This document shows positions 18,984 to 29,700 of a DNA stretch of 32,552 nucleotides, piece by piece. The stretch lies in the NCBI GenBank assembly GCA_025454475.1, contig JALOOJ010000033.1:1-32552 (forward strand), in the 5' to 3' direction. The notes below the pieces were generated by a model. It was not told the DNA's origin. It saw only the letters and a program-made list of their open reading frames with translations, and did no database searches. Within the stretch, counting starts at the first letter, position 1, and every line of letters begins with the position of its first letter. The position numbers were made by a program, and so were the translations under genes. This stretch comes from Anaerolineae bacterium. Its GTDB lineage: Bacteria > Chloroflexota > Anaerolineae > B4-G1 > SLSP01.

Positions 18984-19105
18984 CTTACTGAACCAGATAT
19001 GTGTTTGTGCAGGCGCTTGCCTCAACGGAGCTTGCACCTCTTGTACCCGGTTCTCTGTGGATCCGTTCCTGGACGGGCAAGCACCAGTATCGGAGGGCTG
19101 AAGCA

Positions 19106-19480
19106 ATGGCGAACAGGTCTCGAAACGAGCGGATGATTGAACGACTGCGGGAGTTACAGGTGAGCAGCCCAGACGTTGAGGCGGCCGCGATCGTCAGTGT
19201 GGATGGGCTCCCGATTGCCACATCGCTTCCTCAGGGAGTCGAGGAGGACCGGGTCTCGGCGATGTCGGCCGCCATGCTATCGTTGGGTGAGCGCATCGCA
19301 GGCGAACTGGGGCGTGGTCTGCTGGATGAGGTCTATGTGCGGGGTGAGCGGGGCTATGTCATCTTGCGCGCTGTAGGTCAGGACGCGGTGCTGACTGTGC
19401 TAGCCCGACAGCAGGCCAAACTCGGTCTCCTTTTTCTGGACATGCGGCGCGCTGCTGAGGAGTTTGCGCGCATCCTCTAG
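19106..19480 (+). CDS. Roadblock/LC7 domain protein
   Basis: 124-aa single-domain cytoplasmic protein. MIERLRELQVSSPDVEAAAIVSVDGLPIATSLP, quoted in part as SPDVEAAAIVSVDGLPIA, is the first helix and strand of a roadblock/LC7 fold. ERIAGELGRGLLDEVYVRGERGYVILRAVG and a closing helix ARQQAKLGLLFLDMRRAAEEF complete it. In bacteria such proteins (for example MglB) act as GTPase-activating or scaffolding partners of small Ras-like GTPases, but no GTPase gene is seen here. ATG 19106 is chosen because GGAGGG lies 8 nt upstream; an upstream open frame to 19001 is leader sequence. It is the first gene of a three-gene operon with V4R and receiver proteins. Confidence 0.85.
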   Translation: MANRSRNERMIERLRELQVSSPDVEAAAIVSVDGLPIATSLPQGVEEDRVSAMSAAMLSLGERIAGELGRGLLDEVYVRGERGYVILRAVGQDAVLTVLARQQAKLGLLFLDMRRAAEEFARIL

Positions 19481-19503
19481 GCGCGGACCGAAGGAGGTTG
19501 TCA

Positions 19504-20142
19504 GTGGCTGACGCTCCGCAACCCAGCGGTTATCTTTACCCTCACCGTTTCGGCCTGATCCTCTTCGACGCACTCGAGGAGATCATGGGGCGCAATGGGC
19601 TCAATGCGATCCTCAATATGGCGCGTCTCGGGCAGTTTATCACCAATCCCCCGCCCGATACAATGGACAAAGGATTCGACTTCGCCTATATTTCGGCCCT
19701 GAACCGGGCACTCGAGGATATGTATGGACCTCGGGGTGGTCGCGGATTGCAGTTGCGATTGGGTCGGGTGTTGTTTGTGAGGGGGCTCTCCAACTTCGGC
19801 GCGTTGGTGGGCGCCAGTGATCTCGCTTTCAGGGTGCTGCCGTTGCAGTCAAAGGTGCGAGCGGGGCTTCCTGCCGTGGCAAAGGTGTTTGATTCCCTGA
19901 GTGATCAAACTTCCTTCGTGCGCGATCCCGGCGGTGAGCAGTACCACTATATCATTGAGCGCTGTTCTATGTGTTGGGGACGAAGCGTTGACCGGCCTGG
20001 CGGCTTTATCGCCGCGGGTATAATAGAGGAAGCATTGCGATGGATCAGCGGTGGGCGCACGTTCCGGGTGGATCAAACGTCCTGCATCGGTATGGGACAC
20101 AGCAATTGCACGTTCCAGGTGTACAAAGAACCGCTTGACTAA
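19504..20142 (+). CDS. V4R (4-vinyl reductase superfamily) domain protein
   Basis: About 212-aa protein made of one V4R-type domain. LYPHRFGLILFDALEEIMGRNGLNAIL starts the domain (LYPHRFGLILFDALEEI is diagnostic enough to place it). RGLQLRLGRVLFVRGL is the central segment. RCSMCWGR, then FIAAGIIEEALRWISGG, and a final SCIGMGHSNCTFQV close it, with the paired cysteines usual at the end of V4R domains. V4R domains are thought to bind small hydrophobic ligands or metals and occur as sensor modules in XylR-type regulators and in BchJ. Here it is probably the sensory part of the signalling operon (inference). GTG 19504 has AAGGAGG 6 nt upstream; TTG 19498 is in frame but too close to that site. 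Confidence 0.82.
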   Translation: MADAPQPSGYLYPHRFGLILFDALEEIMGRNGLNAILNMARLGQFITNPPPDTMDKGFDFAYISALNRALEDMYGPRGGRGLQLRLGRVLFVRGLSNFGALVGASDLAFRVLPLQSKVRAGLPAVAKVFDSLSDQTSFVRDPGGEQYHYIIERCSMCWGRSVDRPGGFIAAGIIEEALRWISGGRTFRVDQTSCIGMGHSNCTFQVYKEPLD

Positions 20143-20166
20143 GGCCGGCTCTCAGTACTTCAGAGA

Positions 20167-21102
20167 ATGAACGATCAGGTGACCATGGGACTATCGAATG
20201 AGTCGACGCAGGGCGCGGCGGCAGAGGACGATCGCGACGATCCGTGCCACATTCTCATTGTAGAGGACGAAGTGAGCACGGCGGAGATGCTGACGGCCTA
20301 TTTCTCATCGCTGGGGTACCAGGTGTCCCACGCCGGATGGGGTCAGGATGCCGTCAACTTGGCGACACGGATTCAGCCGGACTTGGTCGTGCTTGATATC
20401 CATCTCCCGGATATCGACGGCTATGAGGTCTGCATGCAGCTGCGCAACCAGCCAAGGACTGAGCACACGCCGGTGATCTTCCTGACGGAACGCCGGGAGC
20501 GGGTTGACCGGCTGACCGGCCTAGAACTGGGCGCCGTAGATTACATCACCAAGCCCTTTGATGTACAGGAGCTTCGTTTCCGTGTGCGCAACGCACTGCG
20601 CCGCAGCAGTCGCGAGACGTTGCTACACCCCATCACCGGACTTCCCACTACCTTGTTGATCGAGGAGGAGATCGCGCGCGTGGCGCGACACCCTGAGCTC
20701 GCGATGATTGGCGTCACCATCAGCGGGATGCCAGAGTTCAGCGATGCCTATGGGTTCCTGACTCACGACGATGTCTTGCGCGCTGTCGCACTCATTCTCA
20801 GGAATACCGCAACGGAGTCTCTAGGGGCCGAGCTCTTTGTCGGGCAGCTTGATTTGTACCAGTATGTCATCGTCACCCCGGCAGGGCAGGACACGTTCGT
20901 GGTGATCGGTCGACTCGATGAACGCCTCAACGAGGCTGCCTCCTTCTTCTACCCGCATCGAGATTGGGAACGTGGGACGCGTAGCGATGGCACGGAGATT
21001 CCCAGGCTCGGCTTTGATATTCGGCTGGTCGACGTTGCATCTTTCACGGCGCCCGGTGGGCTCAACGCGCTGCGACAAGCGCTGATGGGGCCGAGAGTCT
21101 AG
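20167..21102 (+). CDS. Response regulator: receiver domain plus degenerate GGDEF domain
   Basis: 311-aa protein. Residues 30-150 form a complete receiver: acidic pair in LIVEDE, phospho-acceptor D77 in VVLDIHLPDIDGYE, T107 in FLTER and K129 in ITKPFD. From about residue 155 a diguanylate-cyclase-like domain begins with the usual linker HPITGLPTTLLIEEEI and continues through DDVLRAVALILRN. The expected GGDEF loop reads VGQLDLYQYVIV instead, so the metal and catalytic residues are absent and c-di-GMP synthesis is not expected. It may bind nucleotide or a partner. Start ATG 20167 has only a weak ribosome binding site; ATG 20185 is an alternative. Third gene of the roadblock/V4R operon. Confidence 0.85.
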   Translation: MNDQVTMGLSNESTQGAAAEDDRDDPCHILIVEDEVSTAEMLTAYFSSLGYQVSHAGWGQDAVNLATRIQPDLVVLDIHLPDIDGYEVCMQLRNQPRTEHTPVIFLTERRERVDRLTGLELGAVDYITKPFDVQELRFRVRNALRRSSRETLLHPITGLPTTLLIEEEIARVARHPELAMIGVTISGMPEFSDAYGFLTHDDVLRAVALILRNTATESLGAELFVGQLDLYQYVIVTPAGQDTFVVIGRLDERLNEAASFFYPHRDWERGTRSDGTEIPRLGFDIRLVDVASFTAPGGLNALRQALMGPRV

Positions 21103-25766: not shown

Positions 25767-26978
25767 ATGGAAACCACGCAGTTGGAGCAGATGATCCGTT
25801 GGCTGGACGAGGAGCGTAAGCGCGATAGGGCTCAGATTGCCGTGCTACAGGAGCGCCTGGAGCAGCAATCCCAGCAGATGCAGACCCAGGCCACAGAGAT
25901 CGAGCACTTGCGTCAGGACCTGGTCATCGTGGCGACCGATATCCGCCGCACGGACGCCTATCCAGGTATGGTTGAGACCACGCAGCGCGATCTCACCAGC
26001 GCCATCGAGGCTATCAAGGTCCAGACCCGCCGTGAGAAGCTCGAGTCGGATCAATCCCGCCGAGGTGACATTGAGCTGCTCAATGGCATGATCGCCGATC
26101 TGGACAAGCGCATCCGTCCGATGGTGCGGTACGAGGAGCAGCTAGAGGCGCGTGCTGCGGGCGAGCAACGTCTGCAGGGACAGGTGCAGACGGTCTCTAA
26201 CACGTTGGCCGACCTGTCTAAGCGCACGGAGGATCGGCTACAGTCGATCGTTTACCTCGAGGAGCAGCGCCGGGCAGACACCCGCCGCATCAGCGAGGTC
26301 GAGGGCGAACTGCCTGGGCTGCGCAAGCGTCTGGATGAGTCGGTTGCCCGATTCGCGCGTCTGGAGGATAGCATCCGCAAGTTGCCATCCCGTATCGATG
26401 AGGCGATCGAGATCGCCAAGTCCTACGATCCACGGATTGAGGCGTTGCGCGTGGCCGACTTCCAGCGCGAGCAGCGAGTCAAGAAGTATATGGAGCAGGC
26501 CGAATTGGTCGAAGGCGAGGTTCAGCGGTTGGTCGAGCAAACGCAGAAGTACGCGCTACTTTACAACCAGAACAAGCAGGCGCTCGATAGTCTTGTTGCG
26601 TTTGAGGAGCGCCTCGAGAAGCGCCAGAACGAGATCTCGGAGATGCAGCGCTTGACTGAGGAGCGCCTGTTACGCCAATGGGAGGAATGGCAGACGGCGT
26701 TTGCGCGCGACTGGCAGAAGCGCATGGTTACTGAGGAGGATCGTTGGCGCCGGCAGGATCTGGCGAACCAGAGGGCCATGGAGCTCTTGGCAGAATCGGA
26801 TCAACAGGCAGCAATGCAATTTCAGGAGATCCTGGCCCTGTGGGAGGAATTGCTTGCGAGCGTTGAACGGTGGAATCGCGCGCTTGCCGATGCAGTCAAG
26901 CCAGGGCAGGCTACGCCGGCAGAGCACCTGAAGGAGCTTCGTCGTTACGCAGACGAGAAACGCAAGCAGCCGTTGTAG
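25767..26978 (+). CDS. Long coiled-coil protein of unknown function
   Basis: 403 aa, almost entirely charged and helical with heptad-like spacing. It is rich in Gln, Glu, Arg and Leu and has almost no Cys or Gly. Blocks such as LQERLEQQSQQMQTQATEIE (about 28-47), VEGELPGLRKRLDESVARFA (about 177-196) and LVAFEERLEKRQNEISEMQR (about 273-292) suggest several coiled-coil segments separated by short hinges. There is no signal peptide, transmembrane helix or ATPase motif, so it is a cytoplasmic structural or scaffold candidate. I do not recognise the family. ATG 25767 has GGAGGA 10 nt upstream. It lies 144 bp behind the YfhO-flippase gene on the same strand, so it may be co-transcribed. The hairpin at 26998-27039 follows its stop. 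Confidence 0.75.
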   Translation: METTQLEQMIRWLDEERKRDRAQIAVLQERLEQQSQQMQTQATEIEHLRQDLVIVATDIRRTDAYPGMVETTQRDLTSAIEAIKVQTRREKLESDQSRRGDIELLNGMIADLDKRIRPMVRYEEQLEARAAGEQRLQGQVQTVSNTLADLSKRTEDRLQSIVYLEEQRRADTRRISEVEGELPGLRKRLDESVARFARLEDSIRKLPSRIDEAIEIAKSYDPRIEALRVADFQREQRVKKYMEQAELVEGEVQRLVEQTQKYALLYNQNKQALDSLVAFEERLEKRQNEISEMQRLTEERLLRQWEEWQTAFARDWQKRMVTEEDRWRRQDLANQRAMELLAESDQQAAMQFQEILALWEELLASVERWNRALADAVKPGQATPAEHLKELRRYADEKRKQPL

Positions 26979-28639: not shown

Positions 28640-29623
28640 TTAGTGTGTATGCCCACGCTGTCTGGCGAGCATATCCAGCCGAGTCTCTACCTCGTACCAG
28701 CTAATCTCGGAGAGGCCCAGCTTTCGCCGCAGTGCGTCAGGGTCCATACCCTCGATGAAATCGCGCAAGGCGCAGGTCCAGCGGAGTATCTCAAATGTGA
28801 GCCGTGAGACAGCCGCTGTCTCAGCAACCCCAGTGAGCACATACTCCAGATTCCGACCGGTCCACGGGAACAGGGATTGCCGGGTGGGATATTGGAGCAG
28901 ATACTCGTTAAGGGGCGGCACCAAGGCTGCGGGCAACGGAATCCGGCGTTCTTTGTGACGACGGCGGGTATTGCGGTAGCGGATCCAGACTGCCGGGTGC
29001 TCGGGATCGGCAAGGTCGAGGTGATTCAGATGGATCCCCACGCACTCACTCTTCTTTATGCCGGTGCTAAGAATCAGGTTCAGCAGCAGATGCGGTCGTG
29101 CATCTGGCCCGTGGATGTCGTCGCCCTGACGCAAGGCCTGGGTCACGCCCAGTAGTGCCGAGATCTCCTCATCATTCAAGGTCTCCGGAAGCGGCGCGGA
29201 CACGGCGCGATGGATGAGAGGGGCTGATACGTCACGAGGCAGCACCTCCTCATCGGCTAACCACCCGAAAAAGACTTTCAGTGTGGTGACTCTGCGCTCC
29301 AGTGTCTTCGGGCTACACGGAATGCCCCTCCCGCTCTCCATCCATCTCAGAAAGGCATTGAGTGTTGCGGTGCTGATGTCCCCAATAGCGGCTGCCGGTC
29401 CCAGGTAGTCGTGCAGCAGTTGGATATCAAGGCGGAACGCCTGTCGGGTATGACCAGTAAACCCACGGTCCTCCATATGCTTAAGGAACGCCCCGATCAC
29501 AGATTCCAGGGTCGCATTCTGTGGGAGCTCGAGTCCCGTCATTCTGTCCTGTTGCTCGGACGCACGTTCCTCCACCGCGAAGAGCTGGAGCTGCTGAGGC
29601 TCAGAGGCGTGGTTGTCTGCCAT
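28640..29623 (-). CDS. Tyrosine-recombinase-fold protein lacking most catalytic residues
   Basis: 327-aa protein with XerC/D-type layout. A SAM-like N-terminal core-binding domain spans about 36-125 (FLKHMEDRGFTGHTRQAF, AFLRWMESGRG, TTLKVFFGWL). A catalytic-fold domain spans about 147-320. In ungapped comparison with the XerD motifs, Arg I is K190 (TGIKKSE), the beta-hairpin Lys is kept (K224), the HxxR histidine is E278 while Arg II is kept (R281), the LGH histidine is L304, and the Tyr position is E313 with Y310 nearby. Recombination activity is therefore doubtful; DNA binding may persist. ATG 29623 has AGGGGGT just upstream. First gene of a two-gene unit with the amidohydrolase. No att sites or other phage genes are seen. 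Confidence 0.8.
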   Translation of the reverse strand: MADNHASEPQQLQLFAVEERASEQQDRMTGLELPQNATLESVIGAFLKHMEDRGFTGHTRQAFRLDIQLLHDYLGPAAAIGDISTATLNAFLRWMESGRGIPCSPKTLERRVTTLKVFFGWLADEEVLPRDVSAPLIHRAVSAPLPETLNDEEISALLGVTQALRQGDDIHGPDARPHLLLNLILSTGIKKSECVGIHLNHLDLADPEHPAVWIRYRNTRRRHKERRIPLPAALVPPLNEYLLQYPTRQSLFPWTGRNLEYVLTGVAETAAVSRLTFEILRWTCALRDFIEGMDPDALRRKLGLSEISWYEVETRLDMLARQRGHTH

Positions 29624-29672
29624 TGGGACACCCCCTATCATCGCTGCTTCGAACTGGCCACGATCCGATGTC

Positions 29673-29700
29673 ATTATAACCAAGTCCCTACGGATGGTAA
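29673..29700 (-). promoter_or_regulatory. Promoter of the recombinase-like/amidohydrolase unit
   Basis: On the minus strand, TTACCA (29700-29695) and a perfect TATAAT (29678-29673) with a 16-bp spacer, about 50 nt ahead of the chosen start. Confidence 0.6.

Follow-up and report, generated by a model that had tools for sequence, protein, structure and literature searches.

The 32,552-nucleotide stretch analysed here (the window) is a whole contig (C72) of a 4.8-Mb draft genome. Near one end it carries an intact reverse-strand gene for a protein with a tyrosine-recombinase fold (Table 1). As the sequence-only reading of this DNA had described, the frame is uninterrupted and is preceded by a ribosome-binding site and a promoter with a TATAAT box. 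Pfam recognizes both domains of the protein, Phage_int_SAM_1 at 1.2e-6 and Phage_integrase at 7.4e-6, the latter with 26.3 bits, just below the 27.1 cut-off. Against the NCBIfam equivalog models the protein scores 79.6 bits for XerD (cut-off 329.6) and 66.6 bits for XerC (cut-off 335.15). An AlphaFold model built on a 64-row alignment (mean pLDDT 89.4, pTM 0.80) predicts a complete two-domain fold, in which a core-binding four-helix domain and a catalytic-fold domain together make up the arrangement of tyrosine recombinases. The best match to this model among the PDB structures listed is XerH (Z 20.9, rmsd 2.8 over 282 residues), with weaker matches to SroF (Z 14.6) and MrpR/YopR (Z 12.6-13.2); a PDB sequence search with the window protein alone returned none. 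Elsewhere in the window, Roadblock/LC7, V4R-domain and response-regulator-like proteins are encoded consecutively at 19001-21102. Separately, the recombinase profile hits chain 14 of PDB entry 9i5v (401 aa, 8.7e-10), whose label, ribosome-associated inhibitor RaiA, is probably wrong.

Table 1. Features of the recombinase-fold gene, with window coordinates and the evidence or family conservation for each
Feature	Position	Strand	Evidence or conservation
Tyrosine-recombinase-fold gene, catalytically dead, 327 aa	28640..29623	-	Pfam, alignments, AlphaFold, structure matches
Core-binding (SAM-like) domain, N-terminal, residues 39-124	29252..29509	-	Pfam, AlphaFold, family alignment
Catalytic-fold domain, C-terminal, residues 151-322	28658..29173	-	Pfam, AlphaFold
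Ribosome-binding site GGGGGTG	29629..29635	-	Sequence reading
Sigma-70-type promoter TTACCA-16-TATAAT, 10/12 matches	29673..29700	-	Sequence
K190, Arg I position	29054..29056	-	K in 124/124 members, both groups
K224, hairpin Lys kept	28952..28954	-	K in 92/92 class members; R in 30/32 of second group
E278, HxxR His position	28790..28792	-	Class (n=92): E 54, D 34, other 4; second group Q 32/32
R281, Arg II kept	28781..28783	-	R in 124/124
L304, LGH His position	28712..28714	-	L, V or I in 124/124
Y310, Thr column of active enzymes	28694..28696	-	Arg in 60/92 class members
E313, nucleophile Tyr position	28685..28687	-	Variable across family

The catalytic set of active Xer proteins, R-K-H-R-H-Y, is not found in the window protein. 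Alignment with 61 active Xer proteins and integrases places K190, E278, L304 and E313 in the columns of the active R, H, H and Y, exactly the assignment that the sequence-only reading had made by comparing motifs. A second alignment with 17 active Xer proteins of the phylum and a HMMER alignment of the family profile with XerA (PDB 5hxy) give the identical result. K224 and R281 remain, as had been claimed, and so does E193. The substitutions are shared across the family, since all four positions are replaced in 91/92 class members (L020, where Lys occupies the position of the first His, stands apart), in 32/32 members of the second group and in 7/7 distant members; here the labels order, class, second group and far denote bands of profile score and not named taxonomy, and the top band includes a few families beyond the window's order. 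The class-member alignment leaves out two fragments (L051, L052), L002, L105_+ and L001, a duplicate of the window, and the second group comes from larger genomes than the class members. Orthologues bearing the standard R-H-R-Y set had been named as a finding that would overturn the reading; the orthologues carry the same four substitutions instead, which favours it.

A still-active recombinase working through displaced residues such as Y310 is barely credible. Seventeen of 92 class members share Y310, and all 32 second-group members do have a Tyr a few residues downstream of the nucleophile position; however, the replacements affect Arg I, the two His positions and the Tyr column jointly, and Y310 lies in the Thr column, where most class members carry Arg, so that it cannot be regarded as a conserved nucleophile of the family. 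Decay, which had already been doubted from the intact frame, is likewise rejected: the substitutions are family-wide, and comparison with the 79%-identical orthologue of G003 gives dN 0.147 and dS 1.80, a dN/dS of about 0.08, which denotes strongly purifying selection. The catalytic replacements are thus confirmed to be the product of neither chance nor decay.

Two paralogues with 32-34% identity (L054:3430-4429(+) and L055:5876-6929(+)) keep Arg I, carry Asn/Leu at the His positions and have no Tyr; this subfamily is likely another dead form. A distant group from other families of the phylum (L160-L165) has T, S or K in place of Arg I, Q in place of the first His and mostly L in place of the second, with the Tyr displaced downstream in most, and is apparently dead as well.

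The family is nearly class-wide. In a survey of 200 class genomes, each at least 90% complete, 174 contain it at E<=1e-50, nearly always as a single copy. A search across 60 genomes of relatives gave matches in 56; the strong ones, mostly one per genome, share about 38-79% identity, and the weaker ones are ordinary recombinases. At 1e-25 the family profile matches 124 of 400 phylum genomes, the weakest rows being ordinary Xer proteins, and a search of viral contigs for family relatives found none. In a tree of 60 sequences, the dead proteins form one clade (support 0.959) separate from the active ones. As a further observation, no canonical Xer-like gene reaches E<=1e-50 in 51 of the 200 class genomes, single-contig G056, G064 and G170 among them.

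Conservation includes residues expected to face DNA. Invariant in all 124 sequences of both main groups are D66, K106, R110, R111, T113, R176, K190, K191, E193, R226, F252, R257, R281 and G303. Among these, K106, R110, R111 and T113, together with K116 (122/124), belong to the helix where active Xer proteins have R-K/R, and the phosphate pocket retains its surrounding basic residues (K190, K191, K224, R226 and R281). The loss of catalysis, the conserved basic residues of the DNA-facing helix and the low dN/dS together argue that selection maintains a DNA-binding surface and not the chemistry. Binding without cutting is mechanistically plausible, because Cre and Flp with Arg I mutated to Ala continue to occupy their sites and to synapse them (PMC4381057).

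The sequence-only reading had cast the protein as a possible regulator or architectural factor for the adjacent amidohydrolase or the divergent sufSU operon, and had looked to a conserved position beside them. Gene context, with neighbours named by Pfam, was recounted by tblastn because a clustering step had skipped 10 of 110 loci. The 24 loci closest to the window have sufS nearby in 6 cases, sufU in 6, the amidohydrolase in 9 and a coiled-coil gene in 8. At 44 other class loci sufS, sufU and the amidohydrolase did not turn up nearby, and tilS (22), an LCP gene (13) and a glyoxalase (12) are found; 27 second-group loci show a zinc-ribbon protein (16), ComEC (16), ComEA (14) and a single sufS. 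The coiled-coil-like neighbour itself (window 25767-26978, 403 aa) has no Pfam match. The gene is retained whatever its neighbours, and the neighbouring gene is often convergent, which suggests a stand-alone unit. Local regulation of sufSU or the amidohydrolase draws on the adjacent, divergent arrangement in the window and on the persistence of these neighbours in part of its family, but in almost every other group different genes surround what is still the same kind of protein. Since the arrangement is only local, these genes are unlikely targets; as a general role neighbour regulation is rejected, and even for the window we consider it very improbable.

A more widely shared feature lies in the leaders of the orthologues. 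The element CTAYRCGAA occurs there on the coding strand, either overlapping the -10 box or immediately downstream of it and before the ribosome-binding site, in most cases about 42-47 nt after the start of the -35 box (27-28 nt in family f16). Its relaxed pattern is present in 40 of 87 class leaders, covering 10 of 21 families, against 1 of 551 leaders of other open reading frames at the same loci, these controls deriving from a crude ORF caller; in f21 the element is on the opposite strand (2/2). The strict pattern occurs in 32 of the 87, whereas 200 shuffles gave 0.74 on average and never more than 4. The pattern was defined on these 87 leaders and fixed before 40 held-out leaders, picked from the 174 positive class genomes and mostly from families unseen before, were scored: 21 of the 40, from 15 of 26 families, contain it against 1.0 expected from shuffles; of these 21 matches, one includes the start codon (L362) and one lies further upstream (L363). 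Because the orthologues are related, such leader counts do not represent independent events. Among active tyrosine recombinases, 1 of 35 leaders contains the element.

The element is unevenly distributed. It is found in 0/15 leaders of the window's own family, in none of those of f6 (0/7) and f12 (0/2) and, as the strict pattern, in 0/28 second-group leaders. The window contains only two matches, at chance level and neither in the gene's leader, and inspection of the window-family leaders for palindromes and shared 9-mers revealed nothing clear beyond the -10 box and the divergent sufS promoter.

Judged by its letters, CTAYRCGAA comes very close to the XerC half-site of dif. Published XerC arms of dif (PMC2731167) include ATTTCGTATAA and ATTTCGCATAA, which differ at 1 of 11 positions from the element's reverse complement, ATTTCGTATAG or ATTTCGCATAG; for instance, the reverse complement of CTATACGAAAT is ATTTCGTATAG, identical to ATTTCGTATAA at 10 of 11 positions. 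A XerD-like half-site, TTATGTNWA, is seen in 4/87 class leaders, 6/40 held-out leaders and 1/551 controls. The resemblance to these published arms could fit an inactive partner of canonical Xer, a silent protomer modulating dif recombination, and the dead gene does co-occur with a canonical Xer-like gene (E<=1e-50) in 127 of the 200 class genomes. However, 47 have only the dead gene, 22 only Xer and 4 neither, a distribution close to independence, and we find this partnership decidedly improbable. The element may instead act at the RNA level, although an Rfam scan of 20 loci returned only two tRNAs and no family matching the element.

Beyond the leaders, neither 12 genomes nor, subsequently, 200 showed a general enrichment of the element over a reversed-pattern control. 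A genome-wide regulon is not supported on this ground. A few genomes stand out in their counts (G028, G130, G154, G428, G459 and G470), and many matches in the 12-genome search fall inside long open reading frames. Local accumulations of GRCTACACGAAA were observed. In G028, 7 copies lie within about 750 bp beside an active tyrosine-recombinase gene (L326:5140-5920), with one further copy about 1.3 kb away, and an intergenic stretch upstream of an S1-domain-like gene (L327:3960-4372) contains 6 copies within 400 bp; G024 carries paired inverted copies (L329, L330). A mobile or Xer-like recombinase may use these clusters and pairs as its sites.

The same clusters bear on the possibility that the protein is a DNA-bridging, architectural factor, which would bind Xer half-sites, synapse distant copies without cutting and organise the chromosome instead of controlling transcription. 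The near universality of the gene in the class and the synapsis retained by cleavage-dead Cre and Flp mutants (PMC4381057) are in keeping with it, as are the two G028 clusters; yet the site lacks general genome-wide enrichment, and clusters beside an active recombinase are equally explained as that enzyme's own sites. We consider a purely architectural role unlikely.

The lost cutting residues, the single intact copy and the leader half-site together point to what is probably a self-regulating DNA-binding protein. Our preferred reading, which we hold to be reasonably probable, is an autoregulated, non-cutting, Xer-derived DNA-binding protein, MrpR-like in its working and of its own chromosomal lineage. 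What the sequence-only reading saw as a recombinase-derived DNA-binding protein is borne out by the missing catalysis, the retained DNA-binding residues and the intact Xer fold, whereas its proposed targets are not; the gene's own promoter region appears to be the better-supported one. As described in PMC10516654, MrpR (YopR; PDB 8A0A), the master repressor of the Bacillus subtilis prophage SPbeta, has a two-domain tyrosine-recombinase fold with 3 of 7 catalytic residues kept, is without recombinase activity, and binds a repeated DNA element to repress transcription. By analogy with that element, the leader half-site would serve as an operator. In such a scheme, a non-cutting descendant of an Xer-type recombinase, kept for sequence-specific DNA binding, would grip the half-site at or just after the transcription start with its C-shaped clamp, leave it uncleaved, and through its occupancy shut down or tune its own transcription; it could act at a few other sites as well. 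The absence of the element from the window family, f6, f12 and, by the strict pattern, the second group counts against autoregulation, as do the shortness of a single half-site for a dimeric clamp and the rarity of the second half-site. In the window family, the operator would have moved or changed, or autoregulation would have been lost. A wider proposal is offered tentatively: that the non-cutting Xer proteins of Chloroflexota are an ancient single-copy class, inherited vertically from before the classes split, which turned a dif-type half-site into an operator to control itself and perhaps bridges a few chromosomal half-sites.

A dead recombinase-fold repressor is in itself a known kind, MrpR being the proven precedent. 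Our literature search retrieved no description of a dead Xer-derived Chloroflexota family that is chromosomal, nearly class-wide and single-copy and has a candidate operator. The family would add a chromosomal, nearly class-wide case of a recombinase-derived DNA-binding protein and, if the wider proposal is true, a recombinase turned host-chromosome regulator before the classes parted. The candidate operator makes the autoregulation idea directly testable. Such genes are also easily labelled XerC/XerD or integrase, though they are unable to carry out the reaction, and annotation should take this into account.

Several known systems share the fold and differ in what they keep of it. The active XerC, XerD, XerA and XerH proteins share with the dead family the fold, the core-binding helix residues and a related half-site, but they retain R-K-H-R-H-Y, in which the dead family has replaced R, H, H and Y. 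The streptococcal XerD-like protein (HAMAP XerD-like) is a chromosomal Xer homologue that is said not to take part in dif recombination. SroF, by the titles of its PDB entries (9rd5, 9rgl) the DNA-bound repressor of phage phi3T, has the same fold (Z 14.6) but is a phage repressor; no paper naming it was found in our literature search. MrpR is alike in combining a recombinase fold with an incomplete catalytic set, the relation here being one of fold similarity (Z 12.6). MrpR is a phage protein that keeps its Tyr (Y304) and has lost Arg I and Arg II, whereas the dead family is chromosomal, nearly class-wide and closer to Xer, and has kept Arg II and lost the Tyr.
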